Positions 4,566-13,233 of a DNA stretch of 20,971 nucleotides are shown here, one piece after another. Source of the stretch: a virus. How positions within the stretch are numbered: the stretch's first letter is position 1; every line of letters starts with the position of its first letter. The notes under the pieces were generated by a model. It saw nothing but the letters and a program-made list of their open reading frames with translations, had not been told where the DNA came from and searched no databases. The DNA lies in the IMG/VR virus record IMGVR_UViG_3300030098_002648, positions 1 through 20,971 of that record, one strand, 5' to 3'. A program made the translations under genes and the position numbers.

Positions 4566-7500
4566 TTATACTTTCAACCCCATAAATATAATTTTCCCAT
4601 AATTAAAGGTCTCGCTATCTTTTGACATGATCAAAATTCCAGTTACATAATGAGTATATGCGGCTGAAGCATCGTAAATCATAGCTCCTCTAACTGACTT
4701 AAAACTATGGGTAAGCGTGTACCACAAATTAGGGTAGTTATCCCATTGTGCATTGTACTTTAATGGAACTATTATTTCACCACTCCAGCCGTGTCCCTTA
4801 GTGTCATTGGAAAATTGACCAGTTGAGGATGTTCCGCCATAAGCATTTTCAGTTGCACTTCCATGCGTCCTTGAATATTCAGACCATTTGTAATTACTTG
4901 CGTTCCCTACTGCACCATCAGTGCCATTAGCTCCTGTGTAAAGCCTAATCCTTACAGCTCTAGCACCTCCAGTATTTCCTACATCAGCAAATACAATTTT
5001 TATTTGTCTATATTCTGTGTTATCCCATCCTTTATTTTCAATATAATTTCCGTAGTCTCCACCTGCAGAGGAGTTTAAATCACGAGTTGCAATGACCTCC
5101 CAAGCCCCACCACCAGCAGCAGCCCACGATCCATCACCTCTTAAGAAGTTAGAACTGCTTGCCGTACCAGTACCTAGTCTTGCTACAGGTATTTGTCCAC
5201 TCCCTGAAAAACATGTAGCTGCTGGTAATGAATGTATGTTTGAACCATTAACACCAGAGTTATCAATACTTAATTTTGTAGATCCATTATTTTTAAAACT
5301 AAGAGTTGCATCACTATTAATATTTAGATTTAGATCGCTCGTGATGTGTGCCATTCCATCACCAGCAACATCTGTAAATACTTCAAGATCGCCTGAAGCT
5401 CCTAACTTTAATTTGGATTGATCTGCAAGACTTAAATGAGTTCCATCAAAAGTTAAGTTGGCAGAACCAGCAAATGAACCAGAGCTATTATATTGAACTT
5501 GTGTATTAGAACCAGCAGCAGAAGTAGTAGCTGTTTGCCAAGAACACGTTCCATCACCATCCTCTCTTAGGAACTTAGTACCGCCTGATTCGCCTGTAGA
5601 TAATATTGCTGTTCCTTCTGGTGTTGCTGAAATTGTTTGCCATGTATTATCTCCTCTTAGGAACTTGGTAGTGATAGAACTTCCTGATCCAAGTCTTGCA
5701 GCATCTACTGTTCCAGCAGAAATATTATCAGCATCTAAATCAGTTAATGAAGTTCCAACTCCGCTAAATCCTGTTGAAGTTAATAATCCAGTTGAAGGGT
5801 TGTAAGTTAAGCCTGTATCTGTTTCTGCTCCTTGTGATCCTGTCGCTCCATCAACAAACAATGGATAAACAGTTTCATCGGTTGAGTTGTTAGCAGTAAC
5901 TGTAAATTCAGTTGCTAATGCTGCGGTTCCACTTGTATCTTGCGTTCCAGCCGTATTAACACCAGGAAGATTGATATTTGCTGATCCATCAAAGCTAACT
6001 CCTCCAATTGTTCTAGCCGTTGCCAAAGTTTTAGCAGTAGAAGCAATATTGCTATTTGTCTGGACGCTATTGCCCATTAAGGAATGAGCAGAGCATTGAT
6101 AATGAAGGACTTGTGGAGTTGTATCTGAAACAACTATCTGTGTATAAGCTCCAGAAGAACCAGCAGTTCCGTTAGTAGTGACTCCTGTGGTGTAAGCAGT
6201 TGTCTTATCTGCTTCTAAATAAAAACGAAGAGGATGACCTGAGTTAGAACTATCTGCTTGATCAAACTTATATGTACGTCCTGGTGTAAGAGTTAAGAAA
6301 GGAGATTCTTTACCATCAATTTTGTATCCAGAACTAGAACCAGAACCGTTATATCTATGAGCTCCAGTCTTGGTTGCAACTGTGACCGTTAATGTTTTTA
6401 CATTACCTGTATAAGTTGCATTTAGATTTGAGAAGCCAACTAAAGCTCCATCATTAGTTAATGTTGCATCTCCTGTGAATGTTGGTGATGATGTTGAACC
6501 TGGATCTACCCAAGATAAAGTTCCAGATCCATCACTAGCTAAGACATAACCAGAAACAGCAGCGTCAGCCGAAGGGAGAGTAAGAGTAAAACTGCTTGTA
6601 ATGGAAGCAGGAGCTTGAAGAGCAACATAGTGGGAGCTATCAGCGTCTTTAAAACGAAGGTCTGCTTGAGCGTTTAAATTAATATCACCACTACTTGTTA
6701 AACCTGTAAGAGTTCCAAGAGAAGTGATTGCAGATTGAGCAGCACCCGTAACCGTTGCAGCACTTCCAGAAACATTACCTGTGACATTTCCAGTTAAATT
6801 TGCAACAAAGGCACTTGCTGACTTATCCCATAAGCCATCACTAGAATCACCTGTAAATGTGACATCTCCTGTAAACGTGCCACCTGCAAGAGGCATTTTT
6901 GTTGAGTCAGTTGCACTATCAGCAGCCCAAGTAAGTGTTGTAGGTGTTGACGCATCAGCTTTGAGCACCTGACCAGCAGTAGGGGCAACAGCGGGAAGAG
7001 TAAGAGTTATATCTCCTGTCTGTGCCTGTGCTTTTAATCCTGTGTAATTTGATCCATCTCCATCAGTCTCGCTTAGTCTTAATTCCTTTCCATTATCAAT
7101 AATTAAGTTATCTGTAAGTGTTCCACCTGCTTTAGGTAACGCAGCATTAGCTGTTGTAGCAGCAGCATCAGCAGCATCTTTTGCAATCTTGACAGCAGCA
7201 GGAGTAGCAGCAGTAGAAGTAGAAGTAGATGTTGCGCTATCTGTTAATTGAAGAACACCAACTGCACTTGTCGTTCCAGTAGTAATCTTACTTCCAGTAA
7301 TCGCAGCCGATCCAGATATATCAGCATCAACAATGACTCCAGCAGCAATAGCTGTAAGTCCTGCATTATTAATAGAAATATCACCTGTAACAGCTACTGC
7401 TGTTGGAACGTTTGATCCATTTCCAACAATAATTTGAGCAGAAGTTAAAGCCTCTAATTTACTAAATGCAATCGCAGCATCACTCTTAATATCTACGTTT

Positions 7501-10500
7501 TGGATCGTGCCATTAGCAAGCATTGCTCCAGTAACCGTCCCAGTGTCTCCAGTAGTTACAACAGTTCCTGTGACATCTGGGAAAGTAATCGTTTTATCAC
7601 TACCTTGAGGATCAGCAGCGGTAAGAGTTAATTCATAGGCATCAACAGTTGAGCCTTCAAAAGCAAAACTTCCAGTATTTCCTATTAATAATTGGCCAGT
7701 AACAGTACCACCAGAAAATCCCATTTTCTCTGTCTCAAGCTCCTGCAATGCATCTTGAACATTGGTCGCACTAAGTTGACCATAAGGAGTGAAAGTGATA
7801 TTGGCTGCAATTTGACCTGCAACTGTTTGAGATAAATCAACTTCATTCCAGCTACTACCTGCACTATTTGTTATTCCAAGAATGTAATCAGGAGGAGCTA
7901 AAGCAACAACAGGGGCGGGAGAAGTAGGCGTTCCAGAAGAAGAAACTACAACATATACACCGTCTGTTGTTTCACTAGGTGTTGGCAGGTTAGAACCAAC
8001 AGATAAACCAGCTGCAATACCAGCAGAGGTCGTAGCAACCATTTGGCTTGTATTTGCGTTAAACGTTCCACCAAAAACAAGACTTCCTTTTGTAAGTGTT
8101 GTTATTGCTTGCCAAGCGTTTCCATCCCAAATAAATGCATCTTCAGAAACAGTATCAAATAATATTTGTCCATTAAATTGTGCTGTTGGATAACCACTCT
8201 GAGCTATAGATTGGAATATTGCTGTTGAAGCATTGCTTAATTTTGTACCATCAATAGAATCATTAGCTATCCTTGCAGCATCTAGACTTCCACTTGTTAT
8301 TTTACTTGCAGCAAGACTAGGAATTTGAGAAGCAGTAAGTGCCGCACCTGCTGTAACTACACCTTTATTATTAACAGTAACTGATTGATATGTTCCAGCG
8401 GTTACTCCACTTGTTGAAGTTGTTAATCCACCGCTACCATCAACAGTCAAACCTCCTCCAGATGTAATTTGAACTGCACCTTTTGCACTAGTTGTAGAAA
8501 CAGGAAGATCTGCTGCTGTTAAAGCTGTGGCAGCGGTTATCATTCCTTGAGCATTGAAAGTTATTCCACTGACTGTCGCGCCAGTAACACTATTTGTTAG
8601 AGATAAAGCACCAGCCCCAGTAATACTTAATCCAGCACCAATAGATACACCACCAACAGCACTAGCTGTCGCTATAGGAAGATCGCTGGCTGCAAGTGCT
8701 ACCGTTGAGGTAATAAGCCCTTGAGCGTTGTAGCTAATTCCAGATCTTGTTGCAGCAGTTACAACATTATTGATTCCTAAATTTCCACTGGCTACATTTA
8801 ATGACCGATCAAGATTTGATGTATTTAACTTTGCTGGTGTAATTGTACCGTCAGCAATCTTTCCAACAGTGACAGCACCTGCTCCAAGCTTTGCTTCAAC
8901 TACTGCTCCTGTTGCTATGGCTCCACTATCAACTGCATTATTAGCTAAAGCTGCTGCATCAACAGCATTTGCTGCAAGCTTTGCACTCGTAACTGCGTCG
9001 TCTGCAATCTTTGCAGTAACAACAGCATCATCTGCAATTGTGGAACTACTTAACGTTCCAGAAAGTTTTGCTGCTGTAATAGCTCCATCAATAATCTTAT
9101 CTGTAGTAACTGCGTTATTTGCTATCTCACTTGCAGTAATTGCATTTGCTGCAATATTTCCAGAAACAATTGTATCTGTAGCTATTTCATTACTTGTTAC
9201 TGCACCACTAGCAATAGCTCCTGTATCAACTGCATTATCAGCTAACTCACTAGCTGTTACGGAATTTGTTGCTAACTGAGCAGAGGTAACACTTCCACTT
9301 GTTAACTTTGCACCAGCAATATCACCATCACTTAAATTTAATTTTGCATAAGCAATCGTTGTATTTGCAATTTTTGCATTAGTAACAGCAGCATCAACAA
9401 TCGCATCTGTATCTACTGCATCATCTGCTAACTCAGAAGCCCCTACAGCATTTGCACCAATTTCACTTGCGGTAACTGAATTAGCAGCCAGCTGAGTAGA
9501 AGTAATTGTTCCATTAACTAAATTAGAACCAGTAATTGTTGTCGCTGCAATCTTCGCTCCTGTAACAGCAGAATTAACAATGGAAGCAGTATCAACAGCG
9601 TCATCTGCTAACTCTGCTGCACCTACTGCATTATTAGCTAATTGTGTTGTTGTTATTGCACCTGCACCAATCTTCGCACTAGGAATATCTCCATCAGCAA
9701 GATTTAATTTCGCATAAGTAATCGAACCATCTACAACTTCATTTGTCCCTACAGCGTTATTTGCAATCTTTGCATTGGTAACAGCATCAGTTGCTAATTC
9801 TGTTGAAGTAACAGCACCTGTTGCTATCGCAGCAGTGTCTACAGCATCATCAGCTAGTTCACTTGCTGTTACAGCATTAGTAGCTATCTGTGTCGAACCA
9901 ATCCCACCTGAAGCGATTTTTGCCCCAGGAATAGAACCATCAGCTAGATTTAATTTTCCATAACTAATCGTTGTATTTGCAATCTTTCCATCTGTAACAG
10001 CCAAATCAAGAATTGCATTCGTATCAACTGCGTCATCCGCTAATTCAGAAGCACTAATAGCATTCGCTGCTATCTGTGTTCCAGTAATAGTATCGTTAAC
10101 TAACTTTGAACCAGTTATTGTTGTATTAGCTATTTGTGTTGCAGTAACACTTGCACTAGTTAACTTTGCTCCTGCTATATCACCATCATTTACTATTATT
10201 TTTGAATAAGGAATAGACGCAGAGTTTAATTTTGCACTCGTAATAGAACCATCAACAATAGCGTCTGTATCAACTGAATTATCGGCTAATTCACTTGCTC
10301 CTATTGCATTAGGTGCTATCTCATTTGCAGTAAGAGTATTTGCTGCAATTTGAGTTGCAGTAATCGTATTGTTAACAAGATTAGAACCAGTAATTGTTGT
10401 GGCAGCTATCTTTCCTCCAGTTACCGCCCCATTAACTATTGCATTAGTATCTACTGCATCATCGGCTAGTTCACTCGACCCAATAGCATCAGCTGCTATT

Positions 10501-11387
10501 TGCGTTGCAGTTAATGAATTAGAACTAATTTTTGCTCCTGCTATATCGCCATCCGCAACCGTAATATTTGAAAAAGCAATAGCACCTGAAGCTAATTTTG
10601 CACTTGTGACAGCACCGTCAACTATTGCATCTGTATCAACAGCATCGTCGGCTAATTCAGACGCACCAATGGCATTAGCTGCTATTTGTGTGGCTGTAAG
10701 TGTATTGTCTGCAACCTGTGCAGCTGTAATCGTTTTAAGAACAAGATTCGATCCAGTAACTGTTGTTGCAGCTATCTTTGCTCCAGTAACTGCTGAATTA
10801 AGAATTGCACTTGTATCAACTGCATCATCAGCCAACTTGGCAGCAGTAACAGCATTGGTAGCTAATTGACTGGTATCAACACTTAAACTTGTTAACTTTC
10901 CTCCAGGTATATCTCCATCACTTAAATTTAATTTCGCATATGTAATTTCACCATTATTTATTTTTACATTTGTAATTGCGTTACTTGCTAATTTATCTGT
11001 CGTTATATTTAAATCCGCTATTTTCGTTGTAACAACTGCGTTTGTAGCAATAGCGTCACTATCAACTGCATTATTTGCTAATTCACTTGCACCTACAGCG
11101 TTAACAGCAATGGCATCAGTAGTAACAGAATCTGTCGCCAGCTTATCTGCATTTATCGCGTCATTTTGAATTGTCGCTGTTGCAACTGTATTAGCAGCAA
11201 ATGGACCAGCAACTTTTGCAGCAGGAATATCTCCATCGTCGATAAACGTGACACCCGCAGCAATTAAATCTTTAACACTGACCTTCTTTGTTTCAGAAGC
11301 ACTGATATCAGCCAGAGCAAGTGGATCTGTACCTTGAACACCTGCCTCCTGAATTTCGGGCAGATTACTAATCTCAAGATCTGGCAT
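4566..11387 (-). CDS. Giant repeat-built tail fibre / receptor-binding protein (2273 aa)
   Basis: The start (MPDLEISNLPEIQEAG ... DPLALADISASETKKVSVKDL, residues 1-45) is an adaptor-like N-terminus seen in marine phage fibres. Residues about 50-857 are short imperfect repeats (ELADDAVDTDAI, AVTGAKIAATTITGSNLV, GDIAGAKL). Residues about 860-1060 hold longer beta repeats (GISYNAQGLIT, GITFNAQGMIT). A FIWDGNAWQAI block lies near 1066-1100 and T4-fibre-like GGTVTGQLLI / GGTFTGDVTF segments follow. A cupredoxin-like domain occupies about 1659-1777, and three FLR(G/E)DG-type motifs lie further on. The unique, tryptophan-rich C-terminal 179 residues (from AWEVIATRDL) probably form the receptor-binding tip. 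I see no S74-type autoproteolytic chaperone. It probably trimerises and projects from the tail. The minus strand has no strong Shine-Dalgarno before the ATG. Confidence 0.85.
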   Translation of the reverse strand: MPDLEISNLPEIQEAGVQGTDPLALADISASETKKVSVKDLIAAGVTFIDDGDIPAAKVAGPFAANTVATATIQNDAINADKLATDSVTTDAIAVNAVGASELANNAVDSDAIATNAVVTTKIADLNITTDKLASNAITNVKINNGEITYAKLNLSDGDIPGGKLTSLSVDTSQLATNAVTAAKLADDAVDTSAILNSAVTGAKIAATTVTGSNLVLKTITAAQVADNTLTATQIAANAIGASELADDAVDTDAIVDGAVTSAKLASGAIAFSNITVADGDIAGAKISSNSLTATQIAADAIGSSELADDAVDTNAIVNGAVTGGKIAATTITGSNLVNNTITATQIAANTLTANEIAPNAIGASELADNSVDTDAIVDGSITSAKLNSASIPYSKIIVNDGDIAGAKLTSASVTATQIANTTITGSKLVNDTITGTQIAANAISASELADDAVDTNAILDLAVTDGKIANTTISYGKLNLADGSIPGAKIASGGIGSTQIATNAVTASELADDAVDTAAIATGAVTSTELATDAVTNAKIANNAVGTNEVVDGSITYAKLNLADGDIPSAKIGAGAITTTQLANNAVGAAELADDAVDTASIVNSAVTGAKIAATTITGSNLVNGTITSTQLAANSVTASEIGANAVGASELADDAVDTDAIVDAAVTNAKIANTTIAYAKLNLSDGDIAGAKLTSGSVTSAQLATNSVTASELADNAVDTGAIASGAVTSNEIATDTIVSGNIAANAITASEIANNAVTTDKIIDGAITAAKLSGTLSSSTIADDAVVTAKIADDAVTSAKLAANAVDAAALANNAVDSGAIATGAVVEAKLGAGAVTVGKIADGTITPAKLNTSNLDRSLNVASGNLGINNVVTAATRSGISYNAQGLITSTVALAASDLPIATASAVGGVSIGAGLSITGAGALSLTNSVTGATVSGITFNAQGMITAATALTAADLPVSTTSAKGAVQITSGGGLTVDGSGGLTTSTSGVTAGTYQSVTVNNKGVVTAGAALTASQIPSLAASKITSGSLDAARIANDSIDGTKLSNASTAIFQSIAQSGYPTAQFNGQILFDTVSEDAFIWDGNAWQAITTLTKGSLVFGGTFNANTSQMVATTSAGIAAGLSVGSNLPTPSETTDGVYVVVSSSGTPTSPAPVVALAPPDYILGITNSAGSSWNEVDLSQTVAGQIAANITFTPYGQLSATNVQDALQELETEKMGFSGGTVTGQLLIGNTGSFAFEGSTVDAYELTLTAADPQGSDKTITFPDVTGTVVTTGDTGTVTGAMLANGTIQNVDIKSDAAIAFSKLEALTSAQIIVGNGSNVPTAVAVTGDISINNAGLTAIAAGVIVDADISGSAAITGSKITTGTTSAVGVLQLTDSATSTSTSTAATPAAVKIAKDAADAAATTANAALPKAGGTLTDNLIIDNGKELRLSETDGDGSNYTGLKAQAQTGDITLTLPAVAPTAGQVLKADASTPTTLTWAADSATDSTKMPLAGGTFTGDVTFTGDSSDGLWDKSASAFVANLTGNVTGNVSGSAATVTGAAQSAITSLGTLTGLTSSGDINLNAQADLRFKDADSSHYVALQAPASITSSFTLTLPSADAAVSGYVLASDGSGTLSWVDPGSTSSPTFTGDATLTNDGALVGFSNLNATYTGNVKTLTVTVATKTGAHRYNGSGSSSGYKIDGKESPFLTLTPGRTYKFDQADSSNSGHPLRFYLEADKTTAYTTGVTTNGTAGSSGAYTQIVVSDTTPQVLHYQCSAHSLMGNSVQTNSNIASTAKTLATARTIGGVSFDGSANINLPGVNTAGTQDTSGTAALATEFTVTANNSTDETVYPLFVDGATGSQGAETDTGLTYNPSTGLLTSTGFSGVGTSLTDLDADNISAGTVDAARLGSGSSITTKFLRGDNTWQTISATPEGTAILSTGESGGTKFLREDGDGTCSWQTATTSAAGSNTQVQYNSSGSFAGSANLTFDGTHLSLADQSKLKLGASGDLEVFTDVAGDGMAHITSDLNLNINSDATLSFKNNGSTKLSIDNSGVNGSNIHSLPAATCFSGSGQIPVARLGTGTASSSNFLRGDGSWAAAGGGAWEVIATRDLNSSAGGDYGNYIENKGWDNTEYRQIKIVFADVGNTGGARAVRIRLYTGANGTDGAVGNASNYKWSEYSRTHGSATENAYGGTSSTGQFSNDTKGHGWSGEIIVPLKYNAQWDNYPNLWYTLTHSFKSVRGAMIYDASAAYTHYVTGILIMSKDSETFNYGKIIFMGLKV
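6057..6413 (-). other. Cupredoxin-like domain within the fibre
   Basis: Fibre residues about 1659-1777 contain the pattern of a small blue-copper domain: a leading strand and a YKIDG ... FLTLTPGRTYKF segment, SGHPLRF with His1718, then LHYQCSAHSLMGN with Cys1765, His1768 and Met1771. The C-x2-H-x2-M spacing is that of amicyanin-type sites, with the first histidine 47 residues upstream. All four canonical type-1 copper ligands are therefore present in order. Whether the fold binds copper or is a structural decoration is not shown by the sequence. Confidence 0.6.
8815..11225 (-). repeat. About 2.4-kb array of short degenerate coding repeats
   Basis: This part of the fibre gene encodes roughly 800 residues of imperfect short units (about 12-16 residues). 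The units are grouped into larger cycles, each marked by a (D)G(D/S)I(A/P)xAK motif. Going leftward the cycle marks fall near 11228, 10909, 10545, 10180, 9930, 9690 and 9320, so spacing is about 240-370 bp. Copies such as AVTGAKIAATTITGSNLV recur with many synonymous differences, so the amino acids rather than the DNA are conserved. The regularity also creates long meaningless open frames on the opposite strand. Confidence 0.85.
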
Positions 11388-12795: not shown

Positions 12796-13233
12796 CTAAG
12801 GAGCATCTAAACAAGCAACAAATGAACAACTAACATTACTTCTGCCTTTAAAAACACTCGTTACAATTGGAGGACCAGCATACCGCCACTTTAGGCCAAG
12901 AGGAATTGCATCCATGTATCCAGCTAAGTTTGTCAATCTCCCAAATGGGTCAGTGTGACCATCTCCTCCAACACCTGCCAAACCTGACTCTTCGTTGAAT
13001 GTTACATAGTCCCAAACAGAATTAACTAATCGATAATTTTCAAGGATGTCATAAGCCTGTTCATCAGTGATATTAGAAAAACCTAATCGCAACGTAGCAT
13101 TTACTTGCTTATTACCATAACGAATATGTGTCTTTGTACCGTCTAACGCTTCAAAATCTGTACTTGGATACGTCCCAGGAGAATAGCTTCTAGAACTTGG
13201 TTTTATTCCTGGGAATGGTTGTGCTGATGTCAT
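12796..13233 (-). CDS. Minor tail protein, lambda M-like (145 aa)
   Basis: The ATG at 13233 directly follows the stop of the tip gene (TAAATG). The layout resembles the phage minor tail protein M family: a PGIKPSSRSYSPGTYPST head, a strand with DGTKTHIRYGNKQVNATLRLGF, a helix with ITDEQAYDILENY, an aromatic VWDYVTF, and a C-terminal LKWRYAGPPIVTSVF ... VSCSF strand pair. In lambda M is a tail-tip component. Here the gene lies after the J-like gene rather than between H and L. The family call is from the strand-helix-strand pattern and aromatic positions, not a diagnostic residue; a generic virion protein is the alternative. Confidence 0.5.
   Translation of the reverse strand: MTSAQPFPGIKPSSRSYSPGTYPSTDFEALDGTKTHIRYGNKQVNATLRLGFSNITDEQAYDILENYRLVNSVWDYVTFNEESGLAGVGGDGHTDPFGRLTNLAGYMDAIPLGLKWRYAGPPIVTSVFKGRSNVSCSFVACLDAP

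Follow-up and report, generated by a model that had tools for sequence, protein, structure and literature searches.

The question raised by this locus is whether the tail fibre of a phage can contain a copper protein domain. The window, by which we mean the whole stretch of 20,971 nucleotides that was analysed (IMG/VR virus record IMGVR_UViG_3300030098_002648), encodes a long tail fibre, and a preliminary description made from the sequence had proposed that one segment of this fibre resembles a cupredoxin with the ligands of a type-1 blue-copper site. Since the tape-measure and tail proteins of the window match, among isolates, only the Synechococcus siphoviruses S-CBS1, S-CBS3, and S-LBS1, the source virus is taken as a marine cyanosiphovirus. 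Small plus-strand genes at 371–1960 adjoin the tail module, with apparent signal peptides at 1014–1514 and 1514–1960; in Pfam, 1514–1960 matches DUF6322 (2.7e-29) and 371–811 matches DUF6450 (3.2e-33). The fibre itself begins with a repeat-rich N-terminal shaft, which is followed by the cupredoxin module, further shaft modules, and the C-terminal end. The features on which the argument turns are the following:

4566–11387, minus strand: tail fibre gene, 2273 amino acids, from its translation and PHROG tail fibre families 892 and 30742
6051–6404, minus strand: predicted cupredoxin-fold domain, residues 1662–1779, from the AlphaFold2 model and PDB fold matches
6234–6236, minus strand: His1718, first (N-terminal) ligand position, within S-N-S-G-H-P, aligned to the His of the amicyanin P-H-N
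6093–6095, minus strand: Cys1765, thiolate ligand position, from translation and amicyanin alignment
6084–6086, minus strand: His1768, second His ligand position, from translation and amicyanin alignment
6075–6077, minus strand: Met1771, axial ligand position, from translation and amicyanin alignment

Translation of the minus-strand reading frame 4566–11387 confirmed the positions that had been given for His1718, Cys1765, His1768, and Met1771, the assignment to a tail fibre is borne out by the two PHROG families, and the segment that had been singled out (residues 1659–1777) coincides with the predicted domain (about 1662–1779, with strands from 1663 to 1777). The fibre protein contains 3 Cys, 12 His, and 11 Met in its 2273 residues, and for a protein of this composition the chance expectation for a C-x2-H-x2-M motif is 7.7e-5 occurrences; the more permissive C-x2-H-x2..4-M arose in 46 of 200,000 random placements.

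For the fold, residues 1656–1782 were modelled by AlphaFold2 using an alignment of 88 copies, and the resulting model (mean pLDDT 91.8, pTM 0.86) has nine strands in a Greek-key beta-sandwich, the predicted counterpart of the 7–8-stranded sandwich that characterizes the cupredoxin superfamily. His63 of the model (=1718) lies just ahead of the strand 65–68, Cys110 (=1765) closes the strand 105–110, and His113 and Met116 (=His1768 and Met1771) are in the loop ahead of the last strand 118–122, so that the model shows the type-1 arrangement of a His before a strand and a C-x2..4-H-x2..4-M loop between the last two strands. The beta-strand pattern that had been read from the sequence is thus reproduced with the ligands in their cupredoxin places. 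A Foldseek search of the PDB returned rusticyanin at places 1–7 (E 1.8e-4 to 7.2e-4), and with VIA-align the best match was the N-terminal domain of the copper nitrite reductase (CuNIR) of Hyphomicrobium denitrificans (2dv6 and 6tfo, Z 9.2 and 9.1, about 100 residues; 3.0 Å over 101 residues for the best), followed by small laccases (Z 8.2), ceruloplasmin (7.5), and rusticyanin (7.5), all of the matches listed being cupredoxins. Based on model and fold matches, residues 1662–1779 almost certainly adopt a cupredoxin fold.

At the sequence level, the similarity to known cupredoxins is marginal. The window copy reaches the cut-off of no Pfam model; it gave no match to PF00127 (Copper-bind) at E 1, and no NCBIfam family, including amicyanin TIGR02657, was found for it at E 0.1; PF00127 matches 6 of the 88 relatives (best 4.5e-5), and TIGR02657 matches 5 of the 88 (best 0.001). 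A search of PDB sequences with the window copy alone returned nothing at E 10, and cupredoxins were found by the profile only: CuNIR (1.4e-3), a copper oxidase (1.4e-3), and pseudoazurin (9e-3), with some noise mixed in, and more weakly several plastocyanins (0.07–0.4). In an hhalign comparison with amicyanin (1aac), all four ligands are superposed, with GHP on PHN and CSAHSLM on CTPHPFM, at a low probability of 5.6% (P 0.007). The full set of type-1 ligands, spaced as in amicyanin and recognized as such before, holds in this alignment, and the window copy has the order His, Cys, His, and weak axial residue (Met, Gln, or Leu) that defines such sites. The preliminary description had named a fold with the four residues far apart as a refutation; both the topology of the model and the amicyanin alignment are consistent with four side chains that converge on one site. 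Other readings of the sandwich were tried. The plant domain PF25489 (At5g54830-like) aligned over nearly its full length at 17.2–17.6 bits, below its cut-off of 27 bits, and this as well as weak Ig-like and carbohydrate-binding Pfam matches was judged to be general beta-sandwich similarity and dropped, because the ligand-centred and fold evidence favours cupredoxins.

Amicyanin, plastocyanin, pseudoazurin, and rusticyanin share with the module the Greek-key sandwich, which for the module is predicted, and the order His, Cys, His, Met, and the C-x2-H-x2-M loop spacing of amicyanin is identical in the fibre. However, type-1 copper proteins of this kind are free electron carriers, whereas the fibre module is part of a fibre, has a Pro after its first His, and is a putative metal binder. 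The Hyphomicrobium CuNIR resembles the fibre in that a cupredoxin domain is fused to a larger protein, but the fibre lacks the catalytic nitrite reductase domains, and the identity is 16–18%. The module is classed here as a cupredoxin-fold module, neither an amicyanin nor a plastocyanin. The same domain is contained in the marine phage tail fibre and baseplate families PHROG 30742 (match E 1.7e-62), 693, 677, and 27200, which are annotated as tail proteins or unknown and bear no copper or cupredoxin label, nor any name that mentions a metal. In the open-access literature, we found no report of phage virions with cupredoxin, plastocyanin-like, blue-copper, or copper-binding domains, an absence that is unproven as subscription papers and bioRxiv were thinly covered. 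Neither the fold nor the ligand set is new; what is new is the cupredoxin module in virions, which is undescribed in searchable papers. The nearest published idea is that of iron-binding phage tail fibres with HxH sites, proposed as part of the Trojan horse hypothesis (PMC11705849), which likewise concerns a proposed metal site in a marine phage fibre, but with other ligands and another metal.

The domain recurs in virion proteins of other marine phages, as the preliminary description had supposed, and here it extends to fibres, baseplate, and other components of cyano-, pelagi-, and methylophilophages. The best isolate hits are in Melnitz, Bellamy, P-SSM2, and P-TIM68 (48–82% identity to the window copy), the hosts of the carriers are Synechococcus, Prochlorococcus, Pelagibacter, and Methylophilales, and the proteins that contain the domain bear annotations such as tail fibre, baseplate wedge (gp7), baseplate–fibre connector (gp9), or other virion structural protein, a placement also seen in predicted viral structures. 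By its homology to these proteins of isolates, the window copy belongs to what we define here as a virion cupredoxin family. One member, P-SS2 gp080 (NC_013021; L507:2492-2830), consists of a stand-alone, ligand-less domain of 113 codons, in which the quartet positions are D, A, T, and M, leaving only the Met. As mass spectrometry found gp080 in virions, at an average of 9 peptides (PMC2784084), at least this family member is a virion component. Within fibres of the window's kind, the domain is an optional module of mosaic shafts: of 75 fibres in which the module that follows it is present and the upstream sequence is long enough, only 3 have the domain within 60 residues upstream, and in others the same shaft modules are joined without it. 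A relative of the window's tail protein 12796–13233 has an inserted cupredoxin domain (L425:4001-4321), and the module therefore enters other tail proteins as well. In S-BM1 gp9 (L099), a baseplate–fibre connector, a site-bearing and a site-free copy flank a YHYH-like stretch. Fold matches also include small proteins labelled "beta-sandwich proteins" in metagenome-derived genomes of Pithovirus and Marseillevirus (A0A481Z6J5, A0A481Z7Q7, and A0A481YWX9), and a wider viral spread of the fold is possible.

How well are the ligands kept? Five viral scans together with the phage hits yielded 410 sources, all of which contain the domain. Among the 496 full-length copies, whose counts may be inflated for ligand-bearing copies as the scans used conserved peptides that included the Cys loop, 478 have H-C-H-M, 10 have H-C-H-Q, and one has H-C-H-L; one has H-C-H-E with a loop insertion, one (L057) is cut by the contig end, and the site is lost in five, of which three are a single orthologous copy in P-HM1-type proteins and the others are P-HM2 gp7 and S-BM1 gp9. 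The ten copies with the stellacyanin-like Gln in place of the axial Met form one related group (L276, L272, L275, L295, L299, L300, L303, L310, L318, and L319). In 70 representatives below 70% identity, retention was 96% for the first His, 93% for Cys, 94% for the second His, and 89% for Met. To offset the Cys-loop bias, whole isolate phage genomes were separately searched by profile. All 14 known carrier genomes were matched, with 1–6 copies each (five each in Syn9, P-SSM4, and S-ShM2), and no copy was detected by the profile in the genomes of S-PM2, P-SSP7, and T4. We read 58 distinct segments from 17 genomes and P-SS2 gp080, counted as sequences and not as independent events: 31 have the full H ... 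C-x2-H-x2-M, three have quartets with a longer loop (C-x2-H-x3-M twice, C-x2-H-x4-M once), and about 20 lack the Cys and nearly always the second His with it, the remainder being truncated or split. About one third of the segments are thus without the site, usually the entire site, and ligand-less copies are still under-counted as the profile was built from ligand-bearing ones. The site is thus gained or lost largely as a unit, and virions use the fold both with and without it. The preliminary description had held that frequent ligand loss in homologues would refute metal binding; such loss is absent from the 90 copies that are at least 60% identical to the window copy, and it is common across the 17 genomes and P-SS2 gp080.

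Axial Met-to-Gln exchange and loop-length variation occur among characterised type-1 proteins. Because the ligand identity, these two kinds of variation, and the joint loss suit a type-1 site, we infer that the quartet probably binds copper. On this reading, the shaft of a cyanosiphovirus tail fibre has received a cupredoxin beta-sandwich as an optional module, in which His1718, Cys1765, His1768, and the axial Met1771 make up a complete type-1 copper site; fold and ligand set are supported by prediction and conservation, and one copper ion would be taken up per chain. Fibre assembly takes place in the copper-poor cytoplasm, and for this reason copper loading is unproven; it would most likely follow the exit of the fibre from the cytoplasm, with the lysate or sea water as the source of copper. 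The metal may lock the ligand loop and thereby produce a rigid, protease-resistant surface knob, which would be structural or decorative, and possibly adhesive, rather than a site of electron transfer. With less force than for copper itself, such a role is suggested by the presence of the domain in particles, the lack of an evident redox partner, its dispensability, and the site-free copies; if copper is bound, a mainly structural or decorative role is likely. The chances that this reading holds as a whole appear evenly balanced. It does not extend to a general need of the module for fibre stability, as there are paralogues without the site and related fibres without the module.

It is also conceivable, if unlikely, that the cupredoxin scaffold holds a structural metal other than copper, for example zinc or whatever the lysate offers. 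What supports copper in particular is the identity of the ligands, and zinc is the more available metal during cytoplasmic assembly. In the 70 representatives, the first His is usually followed by Pro, whereas Asn or Ser is common at this position in known type-1 sites, and the second shell therefore differs from these. On the other hand, the fourth ligand is Met or Gln in 488 of the 496 copies and never a third His or second Cys, which is typical of type-1 copper but not of zinc.

Rather unlikely is the view that no metal is bound and that the quartet persists through common descent and because its residues serve in packing or in receptor contact within an Ig-like decoration domain. In its favour, Tyr1763, Phe1708, and several Gly are conserved to the level of the ligands—as expected for a scaffold—and the predicted fold persists in ligand-less copies. 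For L328, a copy devoid of the ligands, the model is again a cupredoxin, with pLDDT 80.8 and a Z of 9.9 against the CuNIR domain named above, although its alignment included ligand-bearing relatives. This speaks against the idea that the ligands are required for the fold, and they are thus probably not kept on its account. But the quartet is strict in the 90 near copies, with no ligand change although three of the four codons vary freely between synonyms (TGC 45 and TGT 44 for Cys1765, CAT 80 and CAC 10 for His1718, CAT 69 and CAC 20 for His1768), the losses are joint, and axial substitutions are confined almost wholly to Gln, all of which argues for a metal.

A more far-reaching proposal would be that the fibres and baseplates of marine tailed phages, and of cyanophages in particular, contain true type-1 centres whose copper state is exploited in infection, for example to sense or bind the surface of a phototroph, which is rich in copper and electrons, or to stiffen the fibre only once it is outside the cell; we consider this improbable. 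Quite improbable, too, is that the copper site acts in infection as a redox or copper-dependent switch, or by binding a copper or electron-transfer component of the host at the cell surface. Cellular relatives, mostly with C-x2-H-x2-M, occur in SAR86, SAR92, Woeseiaceae, and marine group II archaea, in proteins predicted to be lipoproteins, and the presence of the domain in predicted surface lipoproteins of SAR86, SAR92, and the archaea fits such a role, as does the proposal that phage tails use iron to reach receptors (PMC11705849). However, no partner, oxidase, or link to host copper genes was found, many copies are site-free, and most fibres that share the neighbouring modules lack this one. 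The response to copper or redox at the cell surface that the preliminary description had envisaged thus received no support in our analysis. Among the cellular proteins, L447, L451, L453, L455, and L461, mostly from marine group II archaea records, are predicted lipoproteins with a C-terminal cupredoxin domain; in L447 this domain comes after collagen-like GPAGPAGADG repeats, which gives a cellular protein the layout of a fibre. Finally, that many sites per virion guard the particle from copper damage or ferry copper between cells is very improbable: that a genome can have several quartet-bearing copies, spread over different virion proteins and probably multiplied by the copy number of the fibres, would fit, but S-PM2, P-SSP7, and T4 do without a detectable copy.

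If the sites of the fibre module are loaded, the particles of many ocean tailed phages would contain copper centres, and these would represent a new class of virion metal site and might hold a pool of tightly bound copper in the sea. Paralogues that lack the ligands can serve as natural controls, as one and the same fold exists with and without the site, sometimes within one protein.
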